A stretch of DNA of 64,000 nucleotides from Pseudomonas poae (lineage in GTDB: Bacteria; Pseudomonadota; Gammaproteobacteria; Pseudomonadales; Pseudomonadaceae), in contig CP034537.1 in NCBI GenBank assembly GCA_004000515.1, positions 2,294,001 through 2,358,000 of the forward strand. The letters are read 5' to 3'. The translations under genes and the position numbers were made by a program. Of this stretch, positions 1 to 14,582 are shown piece by piece; the stretch's first letter is position 1, and every line of letters starts with the position of its first letter. The notes under the pieces were generated by a model. That model had not been told where the DNA came from. It was given only the letters and a program-made list of their open reading frames with translations, and made no database searches.

Positions 1-345
1 ATGCTGCTCCGTCATTGGCGAACAGGGCCGACACTGCTGCGCCTAGCAGGACGATAAATGCGAACAGCTTGCGGGTACTCCCGCCTCCCCATCGGGCCAC
101 ATGCAGCGCAGCCCACTTGAAAAAACCTGCTTCATCAAGCAGCAGACTAATGATGATGACCGCGATGAAAGTCCCAGTGGCATTCCAGACAATGCGCCAA
201 ACCTCTGGTATGTCGGCAAGGGTAACGACACCTGCCAGCAACGCTACGATGGCACCGAACATCGCACTCAGCCCACCCCCAGCCCCTTGGGCTGCCAGAT
301 GACAAGAACGATGGTGGCGATAAAGATCAATACGGCAATCAGCAT
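1..345 (-). CDS. arsB: Arsenite efflux pump ArsB, N-terminal part (runs off window, frameshifted)
   Basis: Membrane carrier that exports arsenite, alone or with the ArsA ATPase. The leftward frame from 345 reads [20 protein letters not shown], the typical ArsB first helix. It then stops at a TGA near 270. Skipping one missing G restores the family sequence ([14 protein letters not shown], then [20 protein letters not shown] and ALFANDGAA) to the window edge. It starts 24 nt after arsR, so the two form an arsRB operon. The frameshift resembles many homopolymer-type indels in this window and is probably a sequence error. The C-terminal three quarters lie outside the window. Confidence 0.85.
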
Positions 346-369
346 TTCATTAATCCGGTTGGGCGTGAA

Positions 370-726
370 TCAGCTACACACGGCTTGATTAATCGGACGG
401 TCGTTCATGCCGCAGAGGCGCTTAGCCTCGGTTTCCAGCCATTGCTGATTGGCGTCTACCACTTCCTTCAAAACTGCAGTCACCCATGTGGGCAAATCAG
501 GATTCAGCCGGTAGTACACCCATTGGCCTTGGCGACGATCCAACAGCAAACCGGCAGAGCGCAGCAGCGCCAAATGACGAGAAATCTTCGGCTGACTCAG
601 GTCGAGTGCTGCCGTTAGCTCGCATACACACAGCTCACCTTCACTCACGACAAGCAGCGAAATTTTTGCTCGGGTGTCGTCCGCCAGGCACTTGAACAAG
701 GTGGTGGGGTTCATGGGTTCTGTCAC
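370..726 (-). CDS. arsR: ArsR-family arsenic-responsive repressor
   Basis: A 118-residue winged-helix metalloregulator that represses the ars operon until As(III) binds. The inducer-binding motif ELCVCEL (Cys-Val-Cys) precedes the recognition helix SQPKISRHLALLRSAGLL, as in E. coli ArsR. The start is the GTG at 726, preceded by GGAGG at ideal spacing. An upstream frame in another register ends across this start (stop at 723-725), so translational coupling is possible. It heads the arsRB transcription unit and diverges from the arsN-like gene across a shared promoter region. Confidence 0.93.
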   Translation of the reverse strand: MTEPMNPTTLFKCLADDTRAKISLLVVSEGELCVCELTAALDLSQPKISRHLALLRSAGLLLDRRQGQWVYYRLNPDLPTWVTAVLKEVVDANQQWLETEAKRLCGMNDRPINQAVCS

Positions 727-841
727 AGATCCTCCAGGTGTTTGGTCTTGACCAAAACGAAGAGCTTGATGCGCTCGTGGATGTCGTGGAGCGTGTGGCG
801 AAATGCGCCGGGATCGTCGCTAGCTAATGCATACGAAAAAT

Positions 842-880
842 CGAATATATGCTTTGTCGAATATTCGGTAAAGCGAATAT
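842..880. promoter_or_regulatory. Candidate ArsR operator: three CGAATAT repeats, 16-bp period
   Basis: CGAATAT occurs at 842-848, 858-864 and 874-880, exactly 16 bp apart. The middle copy extends to the palindrome CGAATATTCG (858-867). The array overlaps the predicted promoters of both divergent genes, as expected for a site through which ArsR represses them together. Assignment to ArsR is inferred from position. Confidence 0.6.
844..872 (-). promoter_or_regulatory. Predicted sigma70 promoter of arsRB
   Basis: On the minus strand, TTTACC (867-872) is followed after 17 bp by TATATT (844-849), one mismatch from the -10 consensus. The transcript would carry a roughly 110-nt leader before the arsR GTG at 726. 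The promoter lies inside the CGAATAT repeat array. Confidence 0.5.
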
Positions 881-883
881 GAT
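854..883 (+). promoter_or_regulatory. Predicted promoter of the arsN-like gene
   Basis: On the plus strand, TTGTCG (854-859) is followed after 18 bp by TATGAT (878-883), one mismatch from TATAAT. It overlaps the arsR promoter and the repeats, so one bound repressor could block both directions. Confidence 0.45.
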
Positions 884-945
884 GATTGCTGCTTCGGCTT
901 GAGCCGTGACAGGCCATACCAACCGGCACAGAAGGAGACGAAGGG

Positions 946-1408
946 ATGGGTAAGGAGATGGTGATACAGGCAACGGAAATAGCCGAAGGGCAACGGCAGC
1001 GTTTTCGCGACGCGCTGAAGTCCGCTGACCTTCCAGCAGATGATATTGATCTTCCAGGCCGAACCTTTTTGAGTTCTCACAGGATGGTGAGACTGTTGGA
1101 TGGGGAGGATTTGAAACGCATGGTACTGACGGGTTGTTGCGTTCTCTGGTTGTAGTCTCGACACACAGATCGAAGAGGGTCGGTGTCACGGTGCTTCGGG
1201 TCATTGAAGCGAAGGCCGCCGAGCAGGGAATCGCTCGACTTCATTTGCTGACAACAACTGCGTCAGGCTTCTTTGAGCAGCAGGGCTATGCAGCAAACCA
1301 ACGAAGCTCTGCGCCGCCTCTGATTTCTCAAACGGAGCAGTTCAGGGGCTTTGCCCTGACTCGGCTTGCTACATGTGCAAGGCGTTATCTGCGTTGGCGA
1401 GAAGATAG
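946..1408 (+). CDS. arsN: ArsN-like GNAT N-acetyltransferase (two frameshifts)
   Basis: GNAT-fold acetyltransferase of the ArsN type found in ars operons; family members are linked to N-acetylation of arsinothricin or phosphinothricin-like compounds. The reading starts MGKEMVIQATEIAEGQ with GAAGGAG upstream. It needs one extra T in the T5 run at about 1065 (giving RTFFEFSQDGETVGWGGFET) and one extra G in the G4 run at about 1357 (giving QFRGLCPDSACYMCKAL, ending at the TAG 1406-1408). Between the breaks it reads LLRSLVVVSTHRSKRVGVTV, the acetyl-CoA loop region, then the family's GFFEQQGY motif. As given the gene is broken twice; both breaks are in homopolymers. Substrate is inferred from context. 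Confidence 0.7.
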
Positions 1409-1444
1409 TCGTTGAGATAAACATGTACGTTGTGGTCAAAAGTG

Positions 1445-1562
1445 CAAGCGGAGCGCGCCGGCCCATGACGGGCCAAAGGCTTGAGGATGGACGCCCGTAG
1501 GGCCAAAACCCGGCGCAGCTGGGGTTTGGTTCACGACAGCCGTACCCCGAGGGGGCAAGCCC
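1445..1562. repeat. 118-bp structured direct repeat, copy A
   Basis: Matches copy B (4671-4788) at 104 of 118 positions without gaps, in the same orientation. Several inverted repeats persist in both copies: GGCTTG with CAAGCC near the ends, a GGCCC/GGGCC hairpin (one C-G pair becomes U-G in copy B), GCCC-GTA-GGGC, CCAAA with TTTGG, and CCCC-GA-GGGG. Conserved stems with variable loops suggest selection on a folded RNA or single-stranded DNA. No coding frame is apparent. It lies between the arsN-like gene and the sirtuin gene and, with copy B, brackets the SIR2/DUF3800 cassette. Confidence 0.8.
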
Positions 1563-1606
1563 AAAGCGGATATACCGTGAACCGCCATCACACTAGAAGG
1601 TAGAAG

Positions 1607-2359
1607 TTAGCCGAAGGCATCACGAAGCAGTGTCTGCATCATCAACGAGGCAGGGCCCTGAAGAAAATGCTCCTGACTGCTGATATCGAACCGCACAGGA
1701 TTAATATGAGCGACAGTGGCACCATGGCCCAAAGCACGTAGCGGTAGCTCAGCAGCCGGATACACAACCCCGGACGTACCAATCGAGAGGAACACATCGC
1801 ATTCCTCTGCAGCGGCTAGGCCCGCACTCCAAGCGTCCTCAGGCAGCATCTCACCAAACCAAACGACTCCTGGTCGAACATACCCATCACACGCGCTGCA
1901 TCGCGGCGGCTCAATTCGACTTCCCTCCTCAGGCAGTGCGCCACACGTGAGGGGCAACCTATATGCCAGCCCGCAATCGATGCACCTAGGAGAATGCAGG
2001 CTGCCATGCAGATGAATTACATCCTGGCTGCCGGCGCGTTCATGCAGGTCATCCACATTTTGTGTGACCACCGTCAGCTTGTGCACATGCCTGGCGAGCT
2101 CGGCGATAGCGAGATGCGCTCCATTCGGCTTCGCCTGCCCAACCTTCTGCCGACGCCACTCGTACCACCCCCAACACAGCGCTGGATCGGCTCTGAATGC
2201 TTCGCTGGTGGCGAGCTGAGCCGGATCGAAGCGCTCCCAGAGCCCTGTCAGTGCATCACGGAATGTCGGGATGCCACTTTCGGCTGAAGCACCCGCCCCG
2301 GTAAAGACAACAACATGCTTAGACTCGCGCAATTGCTGAGCCAGTGTGCTGGTGGTCAT
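1607..2359 (-). CDS. Sirtuin family NAD-dependent protein deacylase (SIR2, CobB-like)
   Basis: Class III deacylase that uses NAD+ to remove acyl groups from lysine. The NAD-binding motif GAGASAESGIPTFR is near the N-terminus, TQNVDDLHERAG in the middle, the catalytic HLHGS follows, and four Cys (CIDC and CSAC) form a zinc ribbon; GTSGVVYPAAELP and HINP complete the fold. All catalytic residues are intact. The start at 2359 has AAGGA at good spacing; an upstream in-frame ATG at 2398 would add 13 residues without a clear RBS. At 250 residues it is a stand-alone enzyme with no fused defence domain. It sits directly downstream of the DUF3800 gene, with a 51-nt gap. It may be a regulatory deacylase or part of a defence module. 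Confidence 0.9.
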   Translation of the reverse strand: MTTSTLAQQLRESKHVVVFTGAGASAESGIPTFRDALTGLWERFDPAQLATSEAFRADPALCWGWYEWRRQKVGQAKPNGAHLAIAELARHVHKLTVVTQNVDDLHERAGSQDVIHLHGSLHSPRCIDCGLAYRLPLTCGALPEEGSRIEPPRCSACDGYVRPGVVWFGEMLPEDAWSAGLAAAEECDVFLSIGTSGVVYPAAELPLRALGHGATVAHINPVRFDISSQEHFLQGPASLMMQTLLRDAFG

Positions 2360-2410
2360 GAGCATTCCTTCGGGCCGGATCTCTTTGGGTGCCGACATTG
2401 TGGTCTGGGG

Positions 2411-3510
2411 CTATTCTTGCCTGTCTCTTGCCATAATGAAGTCAGCGAAGGCATTCGCTGGGTTGTGCCCGCCTTCATCACCAGCCCTTCCGAGTGCTTC
2501 TGGAGTGACATCTGTCGTAGGCCAAACACAGCCGCTGACGAAATCATGCAGAAAGCCCAGGCTATCTAGCTTCATGAAGAACTCATCGTCTGTTTCACCC
2601 TTCTGCCGCTTGGTGTAGTAGTACGAGAGCGCGCTGGTGAGCACGTCGGTGAGCTGGATACCATCAGAGTCGTGTGAGGCGCTGAAGGCCAATGTATTCA
2701 GTTTCAGGGGCAACTCAATCTGGGCGTTCCCGAAACCGATAACTTGCTGCTCTTCACCTTGTTCTTCGAGCTCGGCGATTGCGGTGAAAAAATCGGCCTG
2801 CCGTTCCAGTGGCTCCGAGTCATCGCATAACGCGTCGAACCTGGCATGCTGCCTCCCCACTGAACACACAGTGAAAAGAAAGCCGGTATTGCTGGGTTGA
2901 AGGTATGTTTGGGCAAATCTTCGAAGGCATCCCGGACAATCATCGAGGTCATGGACAGCACTCCGAGCTCCCACTCCATCGGCAGCGTGCTCCGTGCGGC
3001 AGTTTCTTTCATCACCTCCAAATGCTCGTAGAACGCAGTGATTGCTTCCTCGCTTTTCTCGCAGCACATGTCGTAGTAGGCGGAGAGGAACTGATCGAAG
3101 CAACCATCCCCCACTGCTAAAGGAAGGCAAGCGAAGAGCATGTTGCTCAGAGCGATATTCTGGCCGTTCTCATAAAGGTTAAAGTCAAATTGGTAGTAAA
3201 GCAGCGGCTCCAGGAGGTCATCAATCACCTTGGTCAGCAGCATGAACCGCTTGTGAAACACCTGTGCCTTGAAGCGCTCAGGCGTTACCAAGTCGGACTG
3301 GAATAGCTCAATGATCCGGTCTTGCCCTCGCCCCGACTTTCGAAGCTTTTTGAAGTGGATTTCAGCCGCCTGCTGGGAGCGGAGTGGGCGAAGAAGCTGC
3401 TCGCACTCTTCAGCATTGAAGTCACACGAGCCAAGGATAAACAGTGGTTGGTCGAGATCGGCCAGCTGGCGCCCTGTGTTGCCTGATTCGTCGAAGTAGA
3501 TTGTTGTCAT
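2411..3510 (-). CDS. DUF3800 domain protein (one frameshift)
   Basis: The N-terminus MTTIYFDESGNTG is the hallmark of DUF3800, an RNase H-like fold with an early Asp-Glu motif. The family is of uncertain function and common in phage-defence and mobile regions. The C-terminal part includes IQLTDVLTSALSYYYTK, matching the family's late 'Q-aD' motif. The frame breaks at about 2853: one G more in the G4 run would read CVQWGRQHARFDALCDDSE and join both halves into about 366 residues. The start at 3510 is chosen because the DES motif must sit at the N-terminus. It is co-directional with the sirtuin gene (51-nt gap) and the unknown gene upstream (73-nt gap). Confidence 0.8.
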
Positions 3511-3583
3511 TTCGCTACCCTGCGCTTCTGCCTTCGTGGAGTCTTGAATGGCCAGCATGAAGCTGGCCACCACCTCATCAATA

Positions 3584-4405
3584 TCAGAACTCGTGTTCAA
3601 CATCATCGAAGAAGTTTGCGTGTAGCTCGTACTCCAGCGAGCCAAAACGCGCAAGCAAGTCTGCCCTCAGTTCGCCTTCAGCTTCAGGTTCAAAATTGAT
3701 CCAGTAGCTGTACACGAGACCATCATCCGACTCGTTGTTGGTGATCTCTGAGCCCGCCAACAGCTCGCCATCCTCGACCGATATCCCCAGTTCGCTTGCG
3801 AGTGCTTGCGCCATGGACATGCGGTTGCTGATTCGAGCTTCTTCCACCTGAGCCCAATATTCGTGCTCAGACCTGCGATCTCGATCAGCATCCGATTCCA
3901 TACTGGAGATGGATACGCCATCATCTGCAAGCAACCACTTACCATCACGGCGAAGCAACTCGACTGTGGCAGTAAGGATGAATGCTGCACCGTGATACAC
4001 CCGATCTTGGTCTTGCTCGCCCTGATAGGTCAGCGAAACCCCCAAGCTCAGTATCCCGGTTGAATCAGCGTAGTGAGTAGCATCGACCGTTAAGGCGTCC
4101 ACCGTGAACCCGCTGGCGTTTGTCTCCGCAATCGCACCGGACAGCTGATCTTCCAACTCCTGATCCAGATCCGAGAAGACATCGTCCTCGTGGATCGCGT
4201 CGTCAAAGTCCTTGATCCCAAAGACGGCCATCATCAGGCGCGGATCCTCGGGGTTCCGCTGAGCGACCACGGCAAGCTCATGGTAATCAGCAAAGCCAGC
4301 TTTCCGTGCGAGGGTCTCTTGAGCGACAGAAAGCTTCACGTCCTGATCACGAACGAGCTGCTTAGCTTGGGATTTGAAAATGTTAAGCGGGGAAAAATTG
4401 GACAT
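3584..4405 (-). CDS. Unknown protein with N-terminal glyoxalase-related helical motif
   Basis: About 273 residues; the start at 4405 is fixed by GGAG eight bases upstream. Residues about 5-45 (FKSQAKQLVRDQ, then LSVAQETLARKAGFADYHEL) resemble the short helical segment in proteins annotated as glyoxalase-related, where a 'lot of genes end in W-x-x-L-type' helix follows; this is a weak family call. The rest is acidic (EDDVFSDLDQELEDQLSG, many Asp/Glu near the C-terminus) with no recognisable catalytic motif, signal peptide or membrane segment. It is the first gene of the three-gene cassette with DUF3800 and SIR2. Function unknown. Confidence 0.6.
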   Translation of the reverse strand: MSNFSPLNIFKSQAKQLVRDQDVKLSVAQETLARKAGFADYHELAVVAQRNPEDPRLMMAVFGIKDFDDAIHEDDVFSDLDQELEDQLSGAIAETNASGFTVDALTVDATHYADSTGILSLGVSLTYQGEQDQDRVYHGAAFILTATVELLRRDGKWLLADDGVSISSMESDADRDRRSEHEYWAQVEEARISNRMSMAQALASELGISVEDGELLAGSEITNNESDDGLVYSYWINFEPEAEGELRADLLARFGSLEYELHANFFDDVEHEF

Positions 4406-4813
4406 AGCAATGTCTCCAAAACCATTCGACGCTCTGGTGACCGATTGCCTGTTCACCGGGCAGCGTCTGGTTAGGGACATGCCGATGTAAAACGAGTGGG
4501 TGTATCTTCGATGGGCTATTGCTTCGCGAAACAGGCGCCAGGCGACCATCACCGCCTGGCCGGATCATAGGTCAGGCAAATTCGGTCTGCAATAGGCTGC
4601 GTGAAGGGCATCGCCAGGTTGGTTTCGCGGGGAGTGTCTTGGAGGGTTGCTCATATATCAGGCACGACCTCAAGCGGAGCGCGCCGGCTCAGGATGGGCC
4701 AGGGGCTTGAGGATGGAAGCCCGCAGGGCCAAAACCAAGCGCAGCCGGGGTTTGGTTCACGAGAGCCGTCCCCCGGAGGGGCAAGCCCGCAAGTCCGGCT
4801 CGGAAGGTTACAT
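4406..4813. other. Intergenic stretch with the cassette promoter region and repeat copy B
   Basis: About 400 bp without a convincing gene. The left part must contain the promoter for the leftward unknown-DUF3800-SIR2 genes, but no strong -35/-10 pair stands out. The right part is the 118-bp repeat and the 3' flank of the recombinase operon. Confidence 0.6.
4671..4788. repeat. 118-bp structured direct repeat, copy B
   Basis: Second copy of the element at 1445-1562 (104/118 identical, same orientation, 3226 bp apart). It lies 26 bp downstream of the last recombinase gene's stop and upstream of the cassette genes. All stems of copy A can form, including GGGCTTG/CAAGCCC, GCCC-GCA-GGGC and CCCC-CGGA-GGGG. 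Confidence 0.8.
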
Positions 4814-6229
4814 TCAATTGGCGCTCACCCGCCTGCCGGCAATCTCAAAGTCCTCATCCCTCAGACGTTGCAGCTCCAGCAACTCGGCTTCATATTCCTC
4901 AACGCTGAGATCGGTCTTCAGTCGATTCAGCAGCTCCCGCTGCTTACCGTCAAACACCTCCATGGCTGAAGCTAGGTGGACTGACGTTACTGTCGCAGCG
5001 TAGTTAGCGACCTTCTTGAACGCCAAGTGAATATAGCGTTCAACAGCCTCAGAAGACTTATGTCCAGTCCACATCATTACTTCGATAATGAAGGTTTTAC
5101 TACTCAGCAAGGACTGCCTGAATTGATCAGGGTTTTGTAATTCGTGCTGCTTAATTAATTTGACGAATTTGTTCGTGATAAATGCATGCCGGAACATGTG
5201 TGGAGATATCTTTTCTTTTATGCCTGCCGCCTTTTTCAGGAGAGCAATTTCCGAGGTGATTGTGTCCGGAGATATCCCCTTCCCCGAATTTTGTGATACG
5301 AATAGAAAACCATCGTCTTCTTTACCCTTGACGGCCTTCCTGCGCATGATGTTGATGTGCTTCTTTACTTCACTGAGAACCATCTTGTGCGCGGGAATGA
5401 GCCGCTCGCTAGACAAGCCCTGTTTCCAAGTCTCTAGCCTAAGCATTGGCTCGTCCATCTCTATCGCATCAAGGATGTCTTTAACCAATATTCGGGAGAT
5501 TTCCCCCCTGCGTGCACCAGTGTGCTCCAACAGTAGAAGCATGATCTTTCTTCTGGAATCAATGAATCGCGACTTAGAATGGCTGTCTATCGCGTTCTTT
5601 AGGCGCTTTATGTTGTTATCGGAAATCGGGTATGTTGATCGAATTCGTCCGCCAAGGCTTAGCGAGTGATGGTGTACAAACTCTTTTTTCATCGTTCGCC
5701 CATTACGATATTTGACCGTAAAAGCGTGCATGCTGATTCTGATTGTCCCGCCAATGGCGACAAAATTTGGATTCTCGTGAAGCCTGCCAACAAACTCCAG
5801 AAAGGCCAGGCAAACCCGACCTATGCCTAGAATTGTAGGCTCGGTTCTTTTTTTCTCGGTTGGGTAAATCCGAGACTTTTCGTCTCTAAGGGAATCGATG
5901 AACTCTGTAAATTGGGAGTCAGTCAGTTGAATAAAGTCGATGTTCGCATGATAGCAGTAGCGAACCAGTTGGCTTATCTTCGAGGCGTACTCGCCGAAGG
6001 TTCCGCCTTTAGATCCGCGTGTAGATAGGTTGCGGTTACCGTTGCGACCTGGCCGCTCCATCATCGACAGTATGTACTGATTCACCGGCACACAGGGCGC
6101 ACCATTCGGCCAGGTCACGAACGGGACACTGACGAATGTCCTTGTCTCAGTCCTGCCCAGCGCCATGTGGGAATACACTAACATCTCATCCAAGATTGAG
6201 AACAGCTGGTTTTGACTTTTCCCCGTCAT
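4814..6229 (-). CDS. gmtY: Tyrosine recombinase, third member of trio (GmtY-like)
   Basis: A 471-residue site-specific recombinase with a complete catalytic set: Arg in HTGARRGEISR (about residue 240), HMFRH (His344, Arg347), WTGHKS (His390) and nucleophile Tyr399 in AVERYIHLAF. Its start overlaps the upstream 201-residue gene by 4 nt (ATGA), and it is the last gene of the leftward operon. The size and the order recombinase-small protein-large recombinase match what I recall of gamma-mobile-trio modules (GmtY, GmtX, GmtZ). Tn554-type TnpA is an alternative. The DNA is clearly more AT-rich than the core genes. The recombinase call is secure; the family name is from memory. Confidence 0.72.
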   Translation of the reverse strand: MTGKSQNQLFSILDEMLVYSHMALGRTETRTFVSVPFVTWPNGAPCVPVNQYILSMMERPGRNGNRNLSTRGSKGGTFGEYASKISQLVRYCYHANIDFIQLTDSQFTEFIDSLRDEKSRIYPTEKKRTEPTILGIGRVCLAFLEFVGRLHENPNFVAIGGTIRISMHAFTVKYRNGRTMKKEFVHHHSLSLGGRIRSTYPISDNNIKRLKNAIDSHSKSRFIDSRRKIMLLLLEHTGARRGEISRILVKDILDAIEMDEPMLRLETWKQGLSSERLIPAHKMVLSEVKKHINIMRRKAVKGKEDDGFLFVSQNSGKGISPDTITSEIALLKKAAGIKEKISPHMFRHAFITNKFVKLIKQHELQNPDQFRQSLLSSKTFIIEVMMWTGHKSSEAVERYIHLAFKKVANYAATVTSVHLASAMEVFDGKQRELLNRLKTDLSVEEYEAELLELQRLRDEDFEIAGRRVSAN

Positions 6230-6831
6230 CTTCTGTATTCATCCAGGCTTACAACAGAAGGGCCATCTTGGGCTGGAAGCTTGTCGTAAGGTGGGGCGTT
6301 CAGCGAGACCATCGCTGTCAGCGCTTTGATAGCCTCCTGAGCCCTTAGCGACCTGACACCTGCGTTTGGCGCATCCCTGACACTCTTAATATGATCACGA
6401 GCATTGCCTAGCGCATGAAGAAGTGTCAGGTTAGTTTTCTGGTGCATGGCCAGCTTCTGCTCCAGTTCTGCGACTCGCAGCGACAGACCCACCTTGGTTC
6501 GCTTATTGGAGCGCTCCTCGCGTCGCTCTGAGGCCTCTAGCGCTTCAAGGGCTGCGACACGAAGTTTATTCATCCCCTTGAACCCCGTAGGCAGATTGCT
6601 TTCTGCATATGACTTCAGCGTGTTCAGGCTGACAGGGGTCGTTGTCTTCGTCTCCTCGCCCACAGTGAAGCTGAAGCACAGAGCTGCCGTTGAACTCTGA
6701 CTTTTAAGGGCTGCCACCAATTCTTTGTTGCCTTTAAAGCTATCGGGAGCCTTACGGATTCTTTCCAGGCACTCAACCAGCGTGAAAAGCGCCGATGTGT
6801 TGCGCTCTACACGAGCATCAATCTTCTTCAT
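6226..6831 (-). CDS. gmtX: Recombinase accessory protein, middle of trio (GmtX-like)
   Basis: A 201-residue protein with no catalytic motif. Residues about 70-110 (SLNTLKSYAESNLP, then GMNKLRVAALEALEASERRE) and 110-160 are helical and charged, likely a coiled coil (SLRVAELEQKLAMHQK). It is locked between two tyrosine recombinases by 4-nt overlaps on both sides, so the three are translated together. By position it is the small non-recombinase member of a gamma-mobile-trio or TnpC-like partner, which may help synapsis or site choice. The role is inferred from arrangement. Confidence 0.6.
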   Translation of the reverse strand: MKKIDARVERNTSALFTLVECLERIRKAPDSFKGNKELVAALKSQSSTAALCFSFTVGEETKTTTPVSLNTLKSYAESNLPTGFKGMNKLRVAALEALEASERREERSNKRTKVGLSLRVAELEQKLAMHQKTNLTLLHALGNARDHIKSVRDAPNAGVRSLRAQEAIKALTAMVSLNAPPYDKLPAQDGPSVVSLDEYRR

Positions 6832-8903
6832 GCTGCCACCTGCCTGACGTGTGCTACTACCTTGAATCGCAGGCCTTCATCGTCTTCGATGAATTCCGGC
6901 TCGATTTCCACGGCGCCTTCCTCCATCAGATCTGACAGGTAATCTTCGAGCTCCTCGGTGTCGACAATGGTGAAATCCTCTGTACCGTATCGAGCCTTCA
7001 ACAGGGCCGCTAGGTTTTCAAAGCTGTCTACATCACCGCTGTGGAGTGCCTCAGCCACGAACTGCGCTTTTGCCCCGCGCAGGGTGGCACCGTCCATAGA
7101 CTCGGTGAGGTAATGCCAGACGTGCCTCACGTCGGTGTGTCCTAACATCCATTGAAGAGTTTCAAGTCCACCGAAGCTGCGGGAGTAGAAGAACAGCATG
7201 GCAAAGAACCTGCGAAGCTGATGTTGGCGAATGTAATAACGCCTTCCGCCTTCGTTCGTCTGAGTTTCAAAGTAATCACAAAACAAGTCAAGATTCTGGT
7301 TGAAGCCATAAACCGAGACCTTTGAAAACGCGGCATTGCCCTTACTGGAAGGGCTTGCGAAAAGGCCCTGGAGTTCACTAATGAACCCAACCCGTTTCAA
7401 GATCTTTTGCATCCTGACCAGGTTTTTAATCATTCTCATGGCGATTGGTTCGATTGGCCTCACTTCCACTTGCCGAGTGCCGAACAAGTTGGAGGTGCTT
7501 TTCCGGTTGACAAACACCAGCCACTGCTCTGATACATCCAAGCAATCATCGGCGTGCAGATCCATCAGTTCACCGATCCGCCGACCCATCAATGCACCAG
7601 TAACAACCTGCGTGCACCCGATGAGTACCTTCACCATCTCAATCAAACCGTGATTGGAGCGCAGCTTCGTAAAATACTCGGACTTGGTTCCCTTAAGCTC
7701 GCTGGCATAGGGCGTCTCCACCGCTCGCCGCGAGATTCCAAGCTTCTCGACGCCTACTGAAATCAAGTCTTCACCAACCACCTTCTGGAATTGCTGGTCT
7801 GTCAACTTGCTCAGAGGAATGTTTTCCTTCTTGCAGTACATTACTGTACGGCAAAACCCGTCTACGATTTTTGATCCGTGCTTGAGATAAAACTCAATGG
7901 AGTTTCTGACGGCACCGAAAACAACCTGGGAGGGTAGCGACCGGAATCTACCACCGCTTGCCGTATCAATAGAAAAATCCTTGGCGCTCACCAGATCCTC
8001 TATTGATGGCGCAGGCAGCCCAACGTCATGAAGACCTCCGAGGCCATAAAGTGTCCTTCTATATTCGCTAAAGTTGATATCACCCATTTTGTCTCTGGCC
8101 CCTGTGGCCACAGGGATCGGAGGATATTCTCGCACGAAGTCATCGCCGGTTTGGACAGCCAGCATCTTAATAATAGGCTTTTGCTCAAACCTACCTCTAA
8201 TGGTATTTGTGTAAATCTCGTTCGACAATCTTACAGAGTTTGGAACATTTCCTTTGTCACGAGATCCACGGTACAGGCCCTCTAGATAAAGCGCGGCCCT
8301 GACTTTAGGTATTAATTCCAGCGGTATGTCCAGCGTGTTCTCATCGATCTGCTCTGGGGTGATGATTGCTAGCTCAGGCCATAGGGTGATCGCGTGTGCA
8401 ATTTCAGTTTGGCTAGTCTCCAGGGCAAGCTGAAGGCCGTAAAGCGACATGCGCTTTGACCAGCCATAGATCGACTCAGCGGTGTCTTTGCTAGAACCGA
8501 TTTCCGACAAAATCACTTTCAACTTATCTCGGCCCAATCCAGCTAGCCCATATTGTGCTAGTTTGAATTGTTCTGCGTTCAGTAGAAGGAAGTCGACGAT
8601 GTGAACTGCACGCGCGAGCCCGCTGGCCCATTGGAGCTTAAGGCCCGGAGCAGTATTGGCCTGAGTTGAGCCTGTGAGGAAGTATTTGAAGCCATCCAGC
8701 AGCTCCTTATTCTTTTTATCAATTAGGCGGCTCCCATCGTTCAGCTCCACATCCCAATAAATATACTTCGGCTCCTTAAAGGCAAAACTATATTTCCAGA
8801 CGTCGGCGTCGAAGTCGCTGAGTAGCCACTCAGCCGATCTGGCAGCTTCGTCAGGGTCAACGAAAAAAGCCTCAAGGAAATCCAACTCAGGCGGCAGCGA
8901 CAT
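6828..8903 (-). CDS. gmtZ: Large tyrosine recombinase/integrase of trio (GmtZ-like)
   Basis: A 691-residue protein with a C-terminal tyrosine recombinase domain: Arg in ALMGRRIGELMDL (about residue 441), HQLRR (His561, Arg564), MLGHTD (His589) and Tyr598 in VWHYL. The long N-terminal 400 residues are probably DNA-binding and specific to this family. An acidic tail follows the catalytic core. The start overlaps the 71-residue gene by 17 nt and the end overlaps the 201-residue gene by 4 nt. Size and placement fit GmtZ; Tn554 TnpB is the other analogue. Confidence 0.7.
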   Translation of the reverse strand: MSLPPELDFLEAFFVDPDEAARSAEWLLSDFDADVWKYSFAFKEPKYIYWDVELNDGSRLIDKKNKELLDGFKYFLTGSTQANTAPGLKLQWASGLARAVHIVDFLLLNAEQFKLAQYGLAGLGRDKLKVILSEIGSSKDTAESIYGWSKRMSLYGLQLALETSQTEIAHAITLWPELAIITPEQIDENTLDIPLELIPKVRAALYLEGLYRGSRDKGNVPNSVRLSNEIYTNTIRGRFEQKPIIKMLAVQTGDDFVREYPPIPVATGARDKMGDINFSEYRRTLYGLGGLHDVGLPAPSIEDLVSAKDFSIDTASGGRFRSLPSQVVFGAVRNSIEFYLKHGSKIVDGFCRTVMYCKKENIPLSKLTDQQFQKVVGEDLISVGVEKLGISRRAVETPYASELKGTKSEYFTKLRSNHGLIEMVKVLIGCTQVVTGALMGRRIGELMDLHADDCLDVSEQWLVFVNRKSTSNLFGTRQVEVRPIEPIAMRMIKNLVRMQKILKRVGFISELQGLFASPSSKGNAAFSKVSVYGFNQNLDLFCDYFETQTNEGGRRYYIRQHQLRRFFAMLFFYSRSFGGLETLQWMLGHTDVRHVWHYLTESMDGATLRGAKAQFVAEALHSGDVDSFENLAALLKARYGTEDFTIVDTEELEDYLSDLMEEGAVEIEPEFIEDDEGLRFKVVAHVRQVAA

Positions 8904-9102
8904 AAATGACTTTCTCCATTTGAGAAGGATTGCAGTGAATCCTGGCAGTGTTAAGGTGCTCTTTTAACAGATGGTCGCTGCCGCGTTCGATTTCGTCGCT
9001 TACAGCCTTGGAAACGTCCGCCCAATACCTTGCAAGGCCACAAACTTCTTGGTCTTTCGTAGGGTTTCTAACGGCTGCTTCAAGTGAAAGCATAGCGGTC
9101 AT
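8887..9102 (-). CDS. Small hypothetical protein in recombinase operon
   Basis: 71 residues (MTAMLSLEAAVRNPTKDQEV...), mostly helical, with no known motif. It lies between the fourth recombinase (5-nt gap) and the 691-residue recombinase (17-nt overlap). This tight packing in a co-directional operon is the main reason to accept it. Confidence 0.5.
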   Translation of the reverse strand: MTAMLSLEAAVRNPTKDQEVCGLARYWADVSKAVSDEIERGSDHLLKEHLNTARIHCNPSQMEKVIYVAAA

Positions 9103-9107
9103 GATCC

Positions 9108-11214
9108 CTACATCAATCGAAATGTAGATATGGCTTTTTTCTGTTTTGACTTGTTTTGGGCTTGGTTTTTTTCAGGGTTTACGAGATAACTTGGAATGTC
9201 CTTAAGGGCATGGTTTTTCAGAAAGGTGTGGAGCTCCTCCATACTGGAGAAATCCGTTGCTTCAAGCAAGTAGGGGCTGTCCTTCATCGCCTCGCATATG
9301 AAGCTGCGCTGGAATATACGAATCCATCGAGACTGGAAGAATGCCAGTATCGCATCAGGGAGATACCGTCTCAGCAATTCAGCGTCATAGCGCGTATGCC
9401 CAAGTGCTTTTGACATCTCGACAACGTTTTTTGTACGCAGATAGACTTCCACCCCGCACGACGAGCGAATAGTCGTAAGCGATAGTCTTTCAAGGAACAG
9501 CCGTAAGTCGCAGCTTAACAGGCGTGCGTAAGGGGCGAATTGAGGTCGCAGGGCGTCATAGATACCGGGGTGATTTTCGAACCTCCAGCGGTTCCAGACC
9601 GGAATAGCCGAACTGCTAGGAGGAGAAAAGCCCAGGCCACAACTAATAAATAGCTCTTTCCAAATGGGGTTTCCCTCCTTGCGTAGAACCCTTCTCAACG
9701 GCTCAGTGATCTCAATAATCTCTTCGATCCATTGCTGGGACTCAGCGGTGAGCTCAATGACTTGCTCACTTCTTTTTTTGCCTTTGCGATCTTTGTAGCC
9801 GATGAGGTTGGCACCGGTATCGGTTTTAATAAACCCGATATAGTCCCCATTTTCGTCAAAGAGCGTAAATCTGAGTAGGAAGCTTGGAGTGATCTCTGGG
9901 TGCTGAGTCACAAGCAAGCACTGATAGGGGAAAAGCTTATCGGCAGTTGGAAGTCCAAGCAGGTTTGCTACCTCGACCCTGTTACCGCTTCCGAAACGGG
10001 TCGTCAAATAGGTTTTTGTCAGTCTGAAAACCATCTTGCTCAAACGTAGCGCAGATGTTTTCCAGACCCAGTTGTTCTACAGACTTTGTACTGCCGCGCT
10101 GTAGAATGGGCTCGCCAATTTTTGCCAGCGCTTTACGCGCCTGAACTTTAGACCACAGCTGCCGGCATTGTTCAGTGGCCCACAGTTTAACGACCGAGAT
10201 ATCAGATTCGATGTTGTGGAAGATGATTTCGATTGCTTCTTCGTCGGTCACGTGAAGGGGGACTGGCGTAATCAGCTTTTCATGCACAATGACACCATCT
10301 TCGCGCATTTTTTTATGTGTTCCAACGCCTAAGTCAGGCCTTGCAATGGGCCTTGGAAGGCCGCCTTGAAATGGCATTGCCCACACACCTGGATCGATGA
10401 AAACCTCTTCGCATTGGGTGGTGAATGCGTTCCAGCTTTGGATCTGTGCGTTCATGTTGTTCTTTTGCTGGTACGCAGTCAGGAAGAAATCTTTCATGAA
10501 GGCCAAGAAGAACGCCTTGATCATCCGGGGATGCTGGAACGTTACAGGTGGCCAGTCTTCGCCGTGTTCCGAAAGGAACTTGGCCATCTTGTTCACCACC
10601 GTGTATGGAGGTTGAGCATACTTTTTAAAATGAAGCTGCCAGTGGCGATAGAATTCCTCTGTAAATTCCTTACCGTGGCTTACCCACAAGCACGGCAGGT
10701 AGAGGAAATATTCCCGGCCCGTTTTCTGAGAGGTGATTCCCCACCCATTCCAGTACCTGAGGCTTTCTTCATCCAATTTGGAGCGCTGCGCCTGCCACAG
10801 TGAGACATTGCTCGCCATGCTGTCTGGGTCAACCCTCAGTTCCTCCATGCCAGGTATTTCTGCTCGAATGAGATTGTGGGTTTCTGTGAAGGCACGAATG
10901 AAAACCGAACGAGACAATTCGCCGTTGTCAACGAAATCAGTGCGCTCCAGAGCCCCCAAGAAGCCTCGGGCCAGCTTGTGGTACGAGGGACTGGACAAGG
11001 TGATGTACGAAACCTTTGCGCCCTGCAGGTCGCAGTAGCATTCGAAGAGCTTGATCAGCACCGCCGATGGGCTTTTGTACCCTTGAGCTACGCGCTCCAT
11101 CAAGGCGACGACCTCTTGAGACAGAGCTCTGAACGGGTAGTTGGCTAGGTAGGCGGTTTTTCTGATGATTGTCAATTGATTTTGCTCTTTCTTGGTGCAG
11201 ATATAGGCTTGCAT
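9108..11214 (-). CDS. Fourth, divergent tyrosine recombinase-like protein (frameshifted)
   Basis: Two frames join at about 10000: DDPF, then one C fewer in CCC gives FGSGNRVEVANLLGLP, making one protein of about 700 residues. The C-terminal domain has recombinase features: LTTIRSSCGVEVYLRTK holds the second Arg, SKALGHTRYD the GH, and LLRRYLP a candidate nucleophile Tyr. However, the usual His three residues before the Arg is Thr, and no clear first Arg is seen. It could be a degenerate partner subunit rather than an independent enzyme. It is the first gene of the operon, starting only about 50 bp inside the island's right end. Confidence 0.6.
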
Positions 11215-11233
11215 TTCAATGGTTTAGGTGATT

Positions 11234-11258
11234 TTGACAGGAATGTGCAATCGGTCAA
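11234..11258 (-). promoter_or_regulatory. Predicted promoter at the island's right end for the recombinase operon
   Basis: On the minus strand, TTGACC (11253-11258; 5/6 of consensus) is followed after 16 bp by CAAAAT (4/6), 20 bp before the first recombinase ATG at 11214. It lies just inside the junction with hrpB. Confidence 0.35.
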
Positions 11259-11270
11259 GTGCGTCAGCGC
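11259..11270. other. Right junction of the genomic island within hrpB
   Basis: Right of about 11268 the sequence encodes R-S-L-D-A-D-L, the family-conserved stretch just after the DExH box of HrpB (normally DEFHERSLDADL). Left of it the sequence is unrelated and leads into the recombinase operon. The crossover therefore lies near CGCAGCCTCGACG. The left junction, which should repeat part of this sequence, is outside the window. Confidence 0.75.
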
Positions 11271-13390
11271 AGCCTCGACGCCGACCTGGCGCTGGCCCTT
11301 AGCCTGAATGGCCGCGACTTGTTCCGCGATGAGCAGCCGCTGAAAATCCTGCTGATGTCCGCGACCCTCGAAGGCGAGCGCCTGGCGGGCTTGCTGGACA
11401 ACGCGCCGATCCTGCGCAGCGAAGGCCGTATGTTCCCGGTGCAGATGCGCTGGGGGCGGCCGTACCAGGCGGGGGAGTTTATCGAGCCGCGTTTGGTACA
11501 GACCATCCTCGAAGCCCTGCATGACGAAACCGGCAGCGTGCTGGTGTTCCTACCCGGCCAGGCGGAAATTCGTCGGGTCAACCAGCAACTGGCCGACGCC
11601 CTCGGTGATCGCAGCGATGTGCTGCTGTGCCCCCTGCATGGCGAGCTGGACCTCAACGCTCAACGCGCCGCCATCGATCCGGCACCCCTCGGCAAACGCA
11701 AAGTAGTGCTGGCCACCAACATCGCCGAGACCAGCCTGACCATCAACGGCGTGCGTGTAGTGATCGATGCCGGGCTGGCGCGCGTGCCGCGTTTCGACCC
11801 CGGCAGCGGCATGACCCGCCTCGACACCCAGCGCATCTCTCGCGCCAGCGCCACCCAGCGTGCCGGTCGGGCAGGGCGGTTGGAGCCTGGGGTGTGTTAT
11901 CGGTTGTGGTCCGAGGACCAACATGAAGGGTTGGCGGCCTACAGCAGCGCGGAAATCCTTGCCGCCGACCTTGCAGGTTTAGCCCTGCAGTTGGCTCGCT
12001 GGGGCGTCACCCCAATCAACTGGTGTGGTTGGATGTGCCGCCGACCGCTGCGTATGCCCAGGCCCAGGACTTGTTGATGCGACTGGGCGCCTTGAACGAC
12101 GACAAACTCACCGCTCACGGCCAAAAAATGGCTGAGCTGCCGGCTCATCCGCGTATCGGTCATTTGCTGTTACGCGGTCAGGAGCTGGGTTTGGCGGCAA
12201 CCGCGTGTGATGTCGCGGCGCTGCTGGGGGAGCGCGATATCTTGCGCGGGGGCGGCGCGGATTTGCACAGCCGCCTGGCGTTGCTCTCCGGCGAAGAACG
12301 TGCACGCGGCGCCCAAGGCGGCGTGCAGCGGGCCAAGCAGCTGGCGCGGCAGTATCGCGGCTACCTGAGAGGCCAGGCCACGCAACCGGTGGCCGACCCT
12401 GACCACCCGCGCTGGCTCGGCGCCTTGTTGGCATTGGCCTACCCGGACCGCGTTGCCAAGCAACGTCGCCCCGGCGGCGCGGAATACCGCTTGGCCAACG
12501 GCCGTGCCGCGCTGTTCGCCGAAGCCGACAGCCTGATGAAACAGCCGTGGTTGGTGATCGCCGACCTCGGCAGCCGCCAGGGCCAGCGCGAAGAGCGTAT
12601 CTATTTGGCGGCGGATTTTGACCCCGCACTGTTCGATTCGGTGCTGGCCGAGCAGGTGCGCACTGTCGATCAACTCGACTGGGATGAACGTGAAGGCGTA
12701 CTGCGCGCTGAACGCCAGCGCAAAGTCGGTGAACTGGTGCTCAGCCGCGAGGCCCTTACGGGCCTCGACGAATCCGCTCGCAGCCAGGCGTTGGTTAACC
12801 TGGTACGCCGCAAGGGGCTGGAGTTATTGCCCTGGACTCCGGAACTGCGCCAATGGCAGGCCCGCGTCATGCTGCTGCGCCAACTGGATGCCGGTAAAAC
12901 CAGCGAATGGCCCGATATCAGCGACAACGCCTTGCTCGCCGGGCTGGAGCACTGGCTGATGCCTTACCTGGGCAAAGTCTCGCGGCTGAGCCATTTCGCC
13001 AACCTGGATATCGCAAGCTTCCTGCACAACCTGCTGCCCTGGCCGCTGCCCCAGCGCCTCGACGAACTGGCGCCGCAACATGTGAAAGTGCCGTCGGGTT
13101 CGTCGGTGCGGTTGGACTACAGCGAACAGCCACCGATTCTGGCGGTGCGCCTGCAGGAATTGTTCGGGCTGGCAGACACCCCGCGCATTGCCGGCGGCCG
13201 TCAGGTGGTGAAGCTGCACCTGCTGTCCCCGGCGCGACGGCCGGTGCAGGTGACGCAGGATCTGGCGAACTTCTGGCGCAGTACCTACGCCGACGTGAAG
13301 AAGGATCTGAAGGGGCGGTACCCCAAGCACTACTGGCCGGATGACCCGTTGGTGGCCGAGCCCACTGCCAGGATCAAACCCCGAAAGTAG
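11268..13390 (+). pseudogene. hrpB: ATP-dependent helicase HrpB, 5' truncated by island and frameshifted
   Basis: Putative DEAH-type helicase related to RNA helicases. The part present begins right after the DExH box and includes motif III (LMSATLEG), the second RecA domain with QRAGRAGR, the HA2 region and the HrpB C-terminal domain to about codon 708. The Walker A part (about 125 codons) is absent because the mobile island is inserted. A second lesion at about 12010 is one C missing in CACCCC; adding it gives VTPNQLVWLDVPPTAAYAQA. The only upstream start, GTG 11259, has no RBS, so this half is probably silent. The truncation is real; the frameshift is probably an error. Confidence 0.9.
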
Positions 13391-14582
13391 GCGCTGCGCA
13401 GATCAACTGTGGGAGCTGGCTTGCCTGCGATGGCATCGCCGCGGTGTACCTGAGAGGCCGCGTCGTCTGCATCGCAGGCAAGCCAGCTCCCACAGTATTG
13501 CGCAGCTGGCAGCAGGAAGCGTGCAATCACCGGCAGATGGTTGGAGATACGCAACGTGTCGTCCTGGCGCACTCGGGCTTCCACCCGCTTGATGCGCGGG
13601 CTGTAGAACAGGTAATCAAGCGTGCGGTCCGGCCCATCGACACTCGGGTCATTGGGAAAGTGAGTCAGCCACTTTTCACGGTCGATGCCGCTGGATTGGC
13701 TGTTGCTCGGGATCATCGGGTATTTGTCCCACAGCAGGTGTAGCTCGCTGTCCGGTGAATACTGCCCGCGCTTGTCGGCGTCCAGGCGTAGGAATTGTCC
13801 CAGGGGCAGCAAGTTGAAATCCCCGCCGATCAACCAAGGCGTGCCCCGGCCTTCGAATTTATCCAGCAGTTTAACGGTGGCCTGGACCTGCTCCTGTACG
13901 GCGTTGCGTCCGGGCATGTCGCCGTCCAGGCGGGTGTTGAGCACCGCCAGTTGGCCACCGTCGCTCAGCGGCAGGTAGGTCAACAACAGGGCGGGCTTGG
14001 GTTGGAACTGACGGCTGATGAAGTTGGCCGGGGCCGCCGGCAATTGCAGGCGTTCGGCGTGTTTGATCTGGTAGCGGCTCAGCGTCGCCAGCTTGCGGCC
14101 TACACTGCCGAAGATATGCCAGTCGGGGACGAAGTCGGCTTTCCAGTCGAAGGCTTGGGCACTGCAGGGGTAGAGATCGACCAGGCGCTCTTGCAGCAGG
14201 GCGAGTTGGTCCTGGTAATGGGACGGCTTGGCGTTTTCATCGATCTCCTGCAGCAGCAGGAGGTCGGGTTGTTCGTCGCGAATCACCCGCGCCACTTCGT
14301 CGAGGCTGGCGGCCATGTCTTCCACGGTGGGGCGTTCATCTGGACCACTGCCGTCGGCGGTGTCGTACCAGAACACGTAGTTCTTGCCGGCCAGGTATTG
14401 CACGTTCCAAGTCATGACCTTGAGCGCCTGCCCCGGCAGCAGTGTCGGCGCACGGGGGCGACGCAGCTCACCGGCAGGGTTTCCTTCGCTTCGGGGCGCC
14501 AGGTCAGGCTGTAGATCAGGGCGGCGAGCAGGCCCGCAATGATCAGCAGGCCCAACAGGGTTATGCGCAATAAACGGGTCAT
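13330..14582 (-). CDS. Membrane-anchored endonuclease/exonuclease/phosphatase (EEP) family protein, frameshifted
   Basis: The EEP fold covers metal-dependent phosphodiesterases. Motifs: MTWNVQYLAG, LLLLQEID, GGDFNLLP, DRTLDYLFYS and SNHLPVIARF. The true start is ATG 14582, giving an N-terminal membrane anchor (LLRITLLGLLIIAGLLAALI); one more C in the C5 run at about 14453 is needed to join it to the catalytic part. The last 40-50 residues (after RFLLPAAQ) are encoded by a REPIN, and the stop falls 60 bp inside the 3' end of hrpB. It is the second gene of a unit with the membrane protein upstream (40-nt gap). Confidence 0.8.
13409..13497. repeat. REPIN (paired inverted REP sequences)
   Basis: TGTGGGAGCTGGCTTGCCTGCGATG at the left and its reverse complement at the right form an imperfect hairpin of about 89 bp. 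This is a Pseudomonas REPIN, a non-autonomous element spread by RAYT transposases. It lies between convergent hrpB and the EEP gene and is read through by the latter. Confidence 0.9.

Follow-up and report, generated by a model that had tools for sequence, protein, structure and literature searches.

A predicted structured leader RNA and an acidic protein at the head of a repeat-bounded, exchangeable cassette in a Pseudomonas poae genomic island

We have analyzed a 64,000-nucleotide stretch of the Pseudomonas poae genome (assembly GCA_004000515.1, contig CP034537.1, positions 2,294,001 to 2,358,000; hereafter the window), the whole genome amounting to 7.5 Mb in two contigs. Near its beginning, genes for a sirtuin (SIR2), a DUF3800 protein and a 273-residue acidic protein (hereafter ACID) are found between two direct repeats of 118 bp, and a leader of about 130 nt, predicted to be a structured RNA, stands directly before the ACID gene. 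Genome comparison established the repeats, the conservation of the leader with compensatory changes, a nearly one-to-one association between leader and ACID, the turnover of the neighboring genes and their enrichment in defense families. Our reading, held with moderate confidence, is that of an island cassette bounded by repeats and headed by leader and ACID, with DUF3800 as likely effector and SIR2 as a looser passenger adjoining the repeat, which would likely serve in defense against phages or mobile DNA. The initial annotation, made from the letters alone, had proposed the three genes as a candidate defense cassette; the leader and the flanking repeats were absent from it, and the pair of leader and ACID is the central feature here.

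Conservation of the leader and its coupling to ACID

The leader was found by Blast at 33 of 34 ACID starts (loci are numbered L; the match spans only 48 bp in L067-L069 and only 27 bp in L058). In all 30 loci compared, its identity to the window was higher than that of the first 176 ACID codons, for example 93.8 vs 68.6% in L054, 95.3 vs 70.0% in L057 and 81.0 vs 58.9% in plasmid pHCM2, the narrowest gap being that of L032 (95.3 vs 94.9%). A covariance model made from 28 leaders and run on 398 Pseudomonas genomes detected 26 places in 24 genomes, of which 25 sit 16-25 nt before an ACID gene; the exception, in G024, is a degenerate leader with no ACID open reading frame (ORF) found behind. By protein search ACID occurs in 25 of the 398 genomes, and every one of the 25 ACID matches reaching the N-terminus has a leader. 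The two sets of genomes overlap in 23 (hypergeometric p 6e-34). In the same P. poae genome there is a second leader with a short ACID-type gene (L069, G000:C1:2684603-2684993; a frame of 182 residues), matched over residues 1-84 with 39% identity.

RNAalifold pairs the two conserved halves of the leader with each other. In an independent MAFFT alignment 98% of the cells pair and five pairs are changed on both sides (0/500 shuffles). Again in the alignment fitted to the model, with enterobacterial members and the possible pseudoknot included, six pairs are changed on both sides, in 14 cells (1/500 and 0/500 shuffles); further pair types, one of five measures, were not significant (44/500 shuffles). 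Alignments A3-A5 contain only leaders beside ACID; A9, the one fitted to the model, also has the ACID-less hit of L132. Rfam (release 15, 4227 families) gave no leader match in positions 1-14000 of the window at E≤2, nor in L110, L137 and L140 at E≤1, in a scan that did recover the tmRNA of L140, and searches of one open-access library gave nothing relevant on this RNA. Some other roles were tried and set aside. A known riboswitch or thermometer was rejected, there being no Rfam match in these regions. A coding extension or leader peptide was rejected because the eight distinct upstream frames differ pairwise by 78 non-synonymous and 7 stop changes vs 2 synonymous ones, so that the leader is not under coding constraint. 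For a masking of the ribosome-binding site the pairing probabilities gave no clear picture, had no control and were not used.

The pair is also found outside Pseudomonas. Leader matches appear in 161 plasmid records, usually for the 50-nt core only, and ACID protein matches in 200, none of them covering 80% of the protein. Specifically, the pair is carried by enterobacterial plasmids including phage-plasmids, mostly of about 106-113 kb among those listed, and on the phage-plasmids it lies beside an AAA-family ATPase gene that we take to be of the ParA type. It was also found on a Providencia plasmid amid toxin-antitoxin genes, between other toxin-antitoxin pairs (L139), and on an IncFII-type Escherichia coli plasmid between yacAB and parM (L141). 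Among 5,426 E. coli genomes 140 gave a leader match (137 over at least 80% of the leader), in 133 chromosomal and 9 plasmid places, and the two chromosomal copies viewed were both in islands at smpB and the tmRNA gene. In viral contigs a protein-word search gave no ACID relatives; they were found later via the DNA pattern of the leader, with an ACID-type gene behind 5 of 5 leaders. A class-wide search with model R2 gave 2 of 369 genomes, the P. poae genome itself and a weak match (E 3e-4), and within this sample the pair seems uncommon beyond the groups described above.

A likely -10 box (TATGAT) marks the start of the conservation, and most alignment rows have TTGC or TTGT 17 bp before it. 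Since the leader starts at this likely promoter and ends just before the start codon, and since on the - strand of the window no terminator-like site separates it from ACID, it would act in cis: as the 5' untranslated region of the mRNA for ACID, it would be a switch on ACID expression. A scan for promoter consensus over positions 1400-4900 found none.

The leader could instead be a trans-acting partner of ACID, both forming a two-part RNA-protein unit (toxin-antitoxin-like or RNA-gated) that stabilizes mobile elements or blocks phages; separate cargo would then follow behind ACID. This would fit the fact that the RNA and the N-terminal module of about 180 residues alone are the minimal unit conserved from Pseudomonas to E. 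coli, and the plasmid neighborhoods with toxin-antitoxin pairs, yacAB/parM and the ATPase gene. The possible pseudoknot GATGG/CCATC, with 98.8% of its cells paired, points in the same direction, but it is almost invariant, so that covariation speaks neither for nor against it. In type III toxin-antitoxin systems (of the ToxIN kind) an RNA antitoxin bearing repeats and then a terminator stand upstream of the toxin gene. The leader resembles these systems in being a predicted RNA that may form a pseudoknot and in lying immediately before a single protein gene on mobile elements. However, in the window it has no repeat family of at least 25 nt and no terminator-like site before ACID, and the protein is another one, of a fold that is not toxin-like as far as a weak NTF2-like match goes; besides, an RNA end at 16-25 nt before the start codon is the place where a 5' untranslated switch would be expected. 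We consider a trans-acting partner rather unlikely. Retrons and DRT systems are similar in having a structured RNA beside a protein gene in defense islands, and reverse transcriptase genes adjoin some ACID loci, but the unit of leader and ACID itself has no reverse transcriptase by family and PHROG scans.

A cassette with changing content between direct repeats

The two repeat copies are 88% identical and 3226 bp apart, flanking the three-gene block. They are the only copies in the P. poae genome at E≤0.001, and a profile search added a third one within this island, which is diverged (L051). The repeat was found in 12 of 13 other ACID-bearing genomes queried and in 1 of 9 ACID-free genomes, there as a 28-bp match. 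It starts 38-53 bp past the SIR2 stop codon in the window and in L039, L166, L167, L168 and L169, and is not beside that stop in L032, L033 and L172. The window, L039, L057 and L060 show both repeat ends, the other loci one or none. In L168 the backbone of arsR, GNAT gene, repeat and SIR2 is the same as in the window and the cargo is different, and in L039 a gene for an OLD nuclease lies between ACID and SIR2, at the place held by DUF3800 in the window. Direct repeats at both ends, together with this changing content, indicate by comparison of loci that the block is a cassette whose contents are exchanged. The grouping of the three genes in the initial annotation thus goes beyond chance, the block being flanked by the repeat and recurring in other genomes.

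Genomes that lack ACID, too, have the sirtuin gene adjoining the repeat, as though the two travelled together. In L060 (G245:C1 763063-766528) two repeats enclose the N- and C-terminal parts of ACID at a distance of 2.6 kb from each other, which looks like a gene split by an insertion or a remnant of cassette exchange. An integron attC-like site was considered for the repeat and rejected, there being no strong folding (z-scores of -0.1 to -1.2 for the two repeats on both strands).

With recombinase genes adjoining in the window, a leader that heads a cassette of changing content, and the 118-bp repeat no more than 800 bp before ACID in 7 of 34 loci, the leader might be not an RNA but a DNA site, used by the island recombinases for attachment or recombination when cassettes are inserted. 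We regard this as very improbable. Of the one-sided changes in the leader 37 of 38 cells are G-U wobbles, as in an RNA, and the conservation starts at the likely -10 box. Besides, 27 of the 34 ACID starts have no such repeat within that distance, and it was not found in any of 12 leader loci from plasmids, E. coli and viral contigs.

The genes behind the leader

The DUF3800 gene is read here in two frames. Its N-terminal piece matches PF12686 with 23.8 bits vs a Pfam cut-off of 21, and the C-terminal piece is in the other frame; most of the DUF3800 relatives listed carry PF12686. The break is probably an assembly error, because leuS and both copies of hrpB are likewise split in the assembly (see below) and three relatives have unbroken copies. 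For an intact relative a structure model predicts a fold of the RNase HII type, and in the alignment D7, E8, D230 and D289, candidate catalytic acids, are invariant. The protein models used 44 of 124 ACID and 42 of 108 DUF3800 sequences, and sequence searches of solved structures with both profiles gave no match. In the window DUF3800 is predicted to cleave RNA or RNA-DNA hybrids. There is a parallel in a report on Cas12a2, where a DUF3800 protein beside this nuclease has a predicted RNase H-type fold in a defense context (PMC10910872); unlike that arrangement, the block in the window has no TPR or Cas12 gene by family scans. The ACID-linked DUF3800 was not among the matches of the PADLOC model DUF3800_VII, which a second DUF3800 of L038 matches weakly (E 9.5e-6).

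The sirtuin is of the CobB-like deacylase kind. It scores 284.8 bits with the deacylase model NF001753 (cut-off 243), and GAGAS, TQNxD, HG, the four zinc cysteines and YxxR, the motifs of Sir2-type protein deacylases, are all present by eye in the translation, as the initial annotation had pointed out. It does not look like a defense sirtuin of the NADase type (as in Thoeris, DSR or SIR2-pAgo): the PADLOC matches of SIR2 type had E values of 4e-6 to 0.08 over 21-48 residues. The best defense-SIR2 match had E 3.8e-6, the best stretch was of 37 residues, and the Dsr1 model gave E 0.082.

In order to hold as a fixed system, as had been suggested, the three genes should recur together. Actually, besides the window, the full set was found in two genomes, with identical cassette match figures. 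Of the 398 genomes, 25 carry ACID, 4 a member of the DUF3800 subfamily (E≤1e-20) and 15 the sirtuin (E≤1e-100), which is accompanied by ACID in only 4 (p 0.010); at an identity of at least 84% the sirtuin is in 8 genomes, 4 of them with ACID (p 7e-4). On these counts a fixed three-gene system was rejected. The four DUF3800 genomes all have the gene beside ACID on the same strand (p 1.2e-5), although the match figures are identical in two of them, which look like the result of a single transfer. With ACID present in 4 of 4 DUF3800 genomes vs 4 of 15 for SIR2, the tie between ACID and DUF3800 is, in these genome counts, firmer than that of either to SIR2.

The same figures bear on another explanation, by which repeated recombination at an island hot spot gathered the three genes as a mosaic without joint function, DUF3800 and SIR2 serving other ends. 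The scarcity of ACID among the sirtuin genomes agrees with it, as do L166-L169, where SIR2 lies 38 bp from the repeat with different neighbors, and the OLD nuclease of L039 in the DUF3800 place. What makes it an unlikely account is that the DUF3800 subfamily was found only beside ACID in these genomes, and that the neighbors are strongly enriched for defense families. Within about 6 kb of ACID these include genes for a CBASS cyclase, Cap15, Gabija GajA and GajB, OLD, reverse transcriptase and Mrr. We compared 103 of 206 representative neighbors, namely those of 217-932 residues except three (an IS21 pair in L034 and an ORF beside arsR in L036), with 64 control ORFs of 217-935 residues from the own chromosome, loci L044, L045, L046 and L069 having been dropped beforehand as near-duplicates or fragments. 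With PADLOC at E≤1e-10 the neighbors matched 287 families vs 2 for the controls, a count of matched families and not of proteins that is inflated by redundant models. In 18 of 35 loci the first ORF of at least 100 residues behind ACID shares the ACID strand. From the proposed defense cassette, a cargo block in the island that is likely defensive can be kept, and the fixed set of three genes cannot.

ACID itself has no Pfam or PADLOC match, and nothing was found in one open-access library under its PHROG name or the accessions tried. Its predicted structure has a helical N-terminal part, an NTF2-like sheet and a C-terminal alpha/beta part, the NTF2-like match being weak. The N-terminal module of about 177-180 residues is the portion preserved between Pseudomonas and E. 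coli. It is found fused to DUF4238 (PF14022) or to a DUF2971-like tail (L057 10001-11368; P0111-P0116; P0097, P0104), and in phage-plasmids a separate DUF2971 gene lies a few genes away from ACID (L048, L137). By eye, the N-terminal stretch of a tyrosine recombinase-like protein of about 300 residues (L039 8647-9558; L169 10526-11347) resembles the module too.

In the cassette as we read it, the N-terminal module (about 177 residues) would sense or pass on a signal, and the execution part would be interchangeable: fused to ACID (PF14022/DUF4238, DUF2971-like), encoded by a co-directional gene right behind it (DUF3800, OLD nuclease) or missing altogether. More tentatively, and with doubt on our side, this could be an undescribed RNA-protein immune module, in which a pseudoknotted RNA and a dedicated sensor protein are provided with swappable execution parts (DUF3800, OLD, DUF4238 or DUF2971 tails) by fusion or cassette exchange, and which is carried by phage-plasmids, tmRNA islands and Pseudomonas defense islands. 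If true, one head of RNA and protein is fitted to many execution genes, any gene behind the pair becomes a candidate defense gene, giving a handle for the unknown ones, and what defense islands sense becomes directly testable. The leader, an RNA family without Rfam match, is open to direct probing in laboratory strains of E. coli.

The island and its surroundings

The features of the region are collected in Table 1. As the initial annotation had described, the three genes are co-directional, by ORF calls and family scans, and belong to a recombinase island next to resistance genes, in this case for arsenic resistance. Its assignment to the GMT type was not supported. Gamma-mobile-trio (GMT) islands carry several tyrosine recombinases and defense-like cargo, and the island is similar in both, but in the window the GmtY model (NF040693) gave E 0.08 and 12.2 bits vs a cut-off of 340. 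No model for GmtX or GmtZ, the two companion genes, was among the NCBIfam matches of nine proteins, the NCBIfam coverage of both being unconfirmed. The candidate for a third recombinase had no family match in the family-model and PHROG scans. The I55 family of tmRNA-site islands of Pseudomonas has no transfer genes, a tyrosine integrase and exchangeable defense cargo (PMC12595487). The two E. coli copies viewed at the tmRNA gene are alike in location, whereas the island of the window appears to sit in hrpB and has another recombinase set.

Table 1. Positions of the features in the window and of the repeat copies beside SIR2 in other loci
Feature	Position	Strand	Basis or remark
arsR of the adjoining arsenic-resistance genes	370-726	-	HTH_5 E 1e-13
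Short GNAT gene of the arsenic-resistance cluster, probably truncated	1134-1415		Between arsR and repeat
118-bp direct repeat, copy 1	1445-1562	+	Just downstream of SIR2
SIR2, CobB-like NAD-dependent protein deacylase	1607-2398	-	Pfam SIR2 E 5.9e-53; NCBIfam NF001753
DUF3800 gene, two frames	2411-3510	-	Pfam; intact relatives
ACID gene, acidic protein, 273 residues	3587-4405	-	phrog_28020 (function unknown), residues 1-177
Predicted structured leader RNA	4431-4562	-	Hairpin P1, long-range helix P2, short helix P3, possible pseudoknot
Likely leader promoter	4564-4592	-	TATGAT 4564-4569, TTGCAG 4587-4592, 17 bp apart; from conservation only
118-bp direct repeat, copy 2	4671-4788	+	Upstream of leader
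Tyrosine recombinase, 471 residues	4814-6229	-	PF00589 E 9e-17
Protein of 201 residues between recombinases	6226-6831	-	No family match
Second tyrosine recombinase, 691 residues	6828-8903	-	PF00589 E 0.0011, under Pfam cut-off; integrase PHROGs, best E 3e-7
Probable third recombinase, two overlapping frames	9108-11214	-	C-terminal motif by eye
Repeat beside SIR2, L166	9388-9499
Repeat beside SIR2, L167	1283-1395
Repeat beside SIR2, L168	9469-9577
Repeat beside SIR2, L169	9534-9639

The right end of the recombinase genes is adjoined by a partial hrpB (window 11259-13390; model positions 125-824, the first approximately 124 codons being absent). A full-length hrpB, split between frames (L051 5383-7948; model 1-382 and 410-825), lies outside the window, about 34 kb left of its first position. 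With this arrangement, the island likely sits in hrpB, with a full copy at its left and a 5'-shortened one at its right. Both hrpB copies are divided between frames, and so is leuS (L052 796-3265; model 1-509 and 513-727), an essential gene, in the same assembly. The splitting of leuS suggests that indel errors of the assembly are probably behind the split DUF3800, hrpB and recombinase genes.
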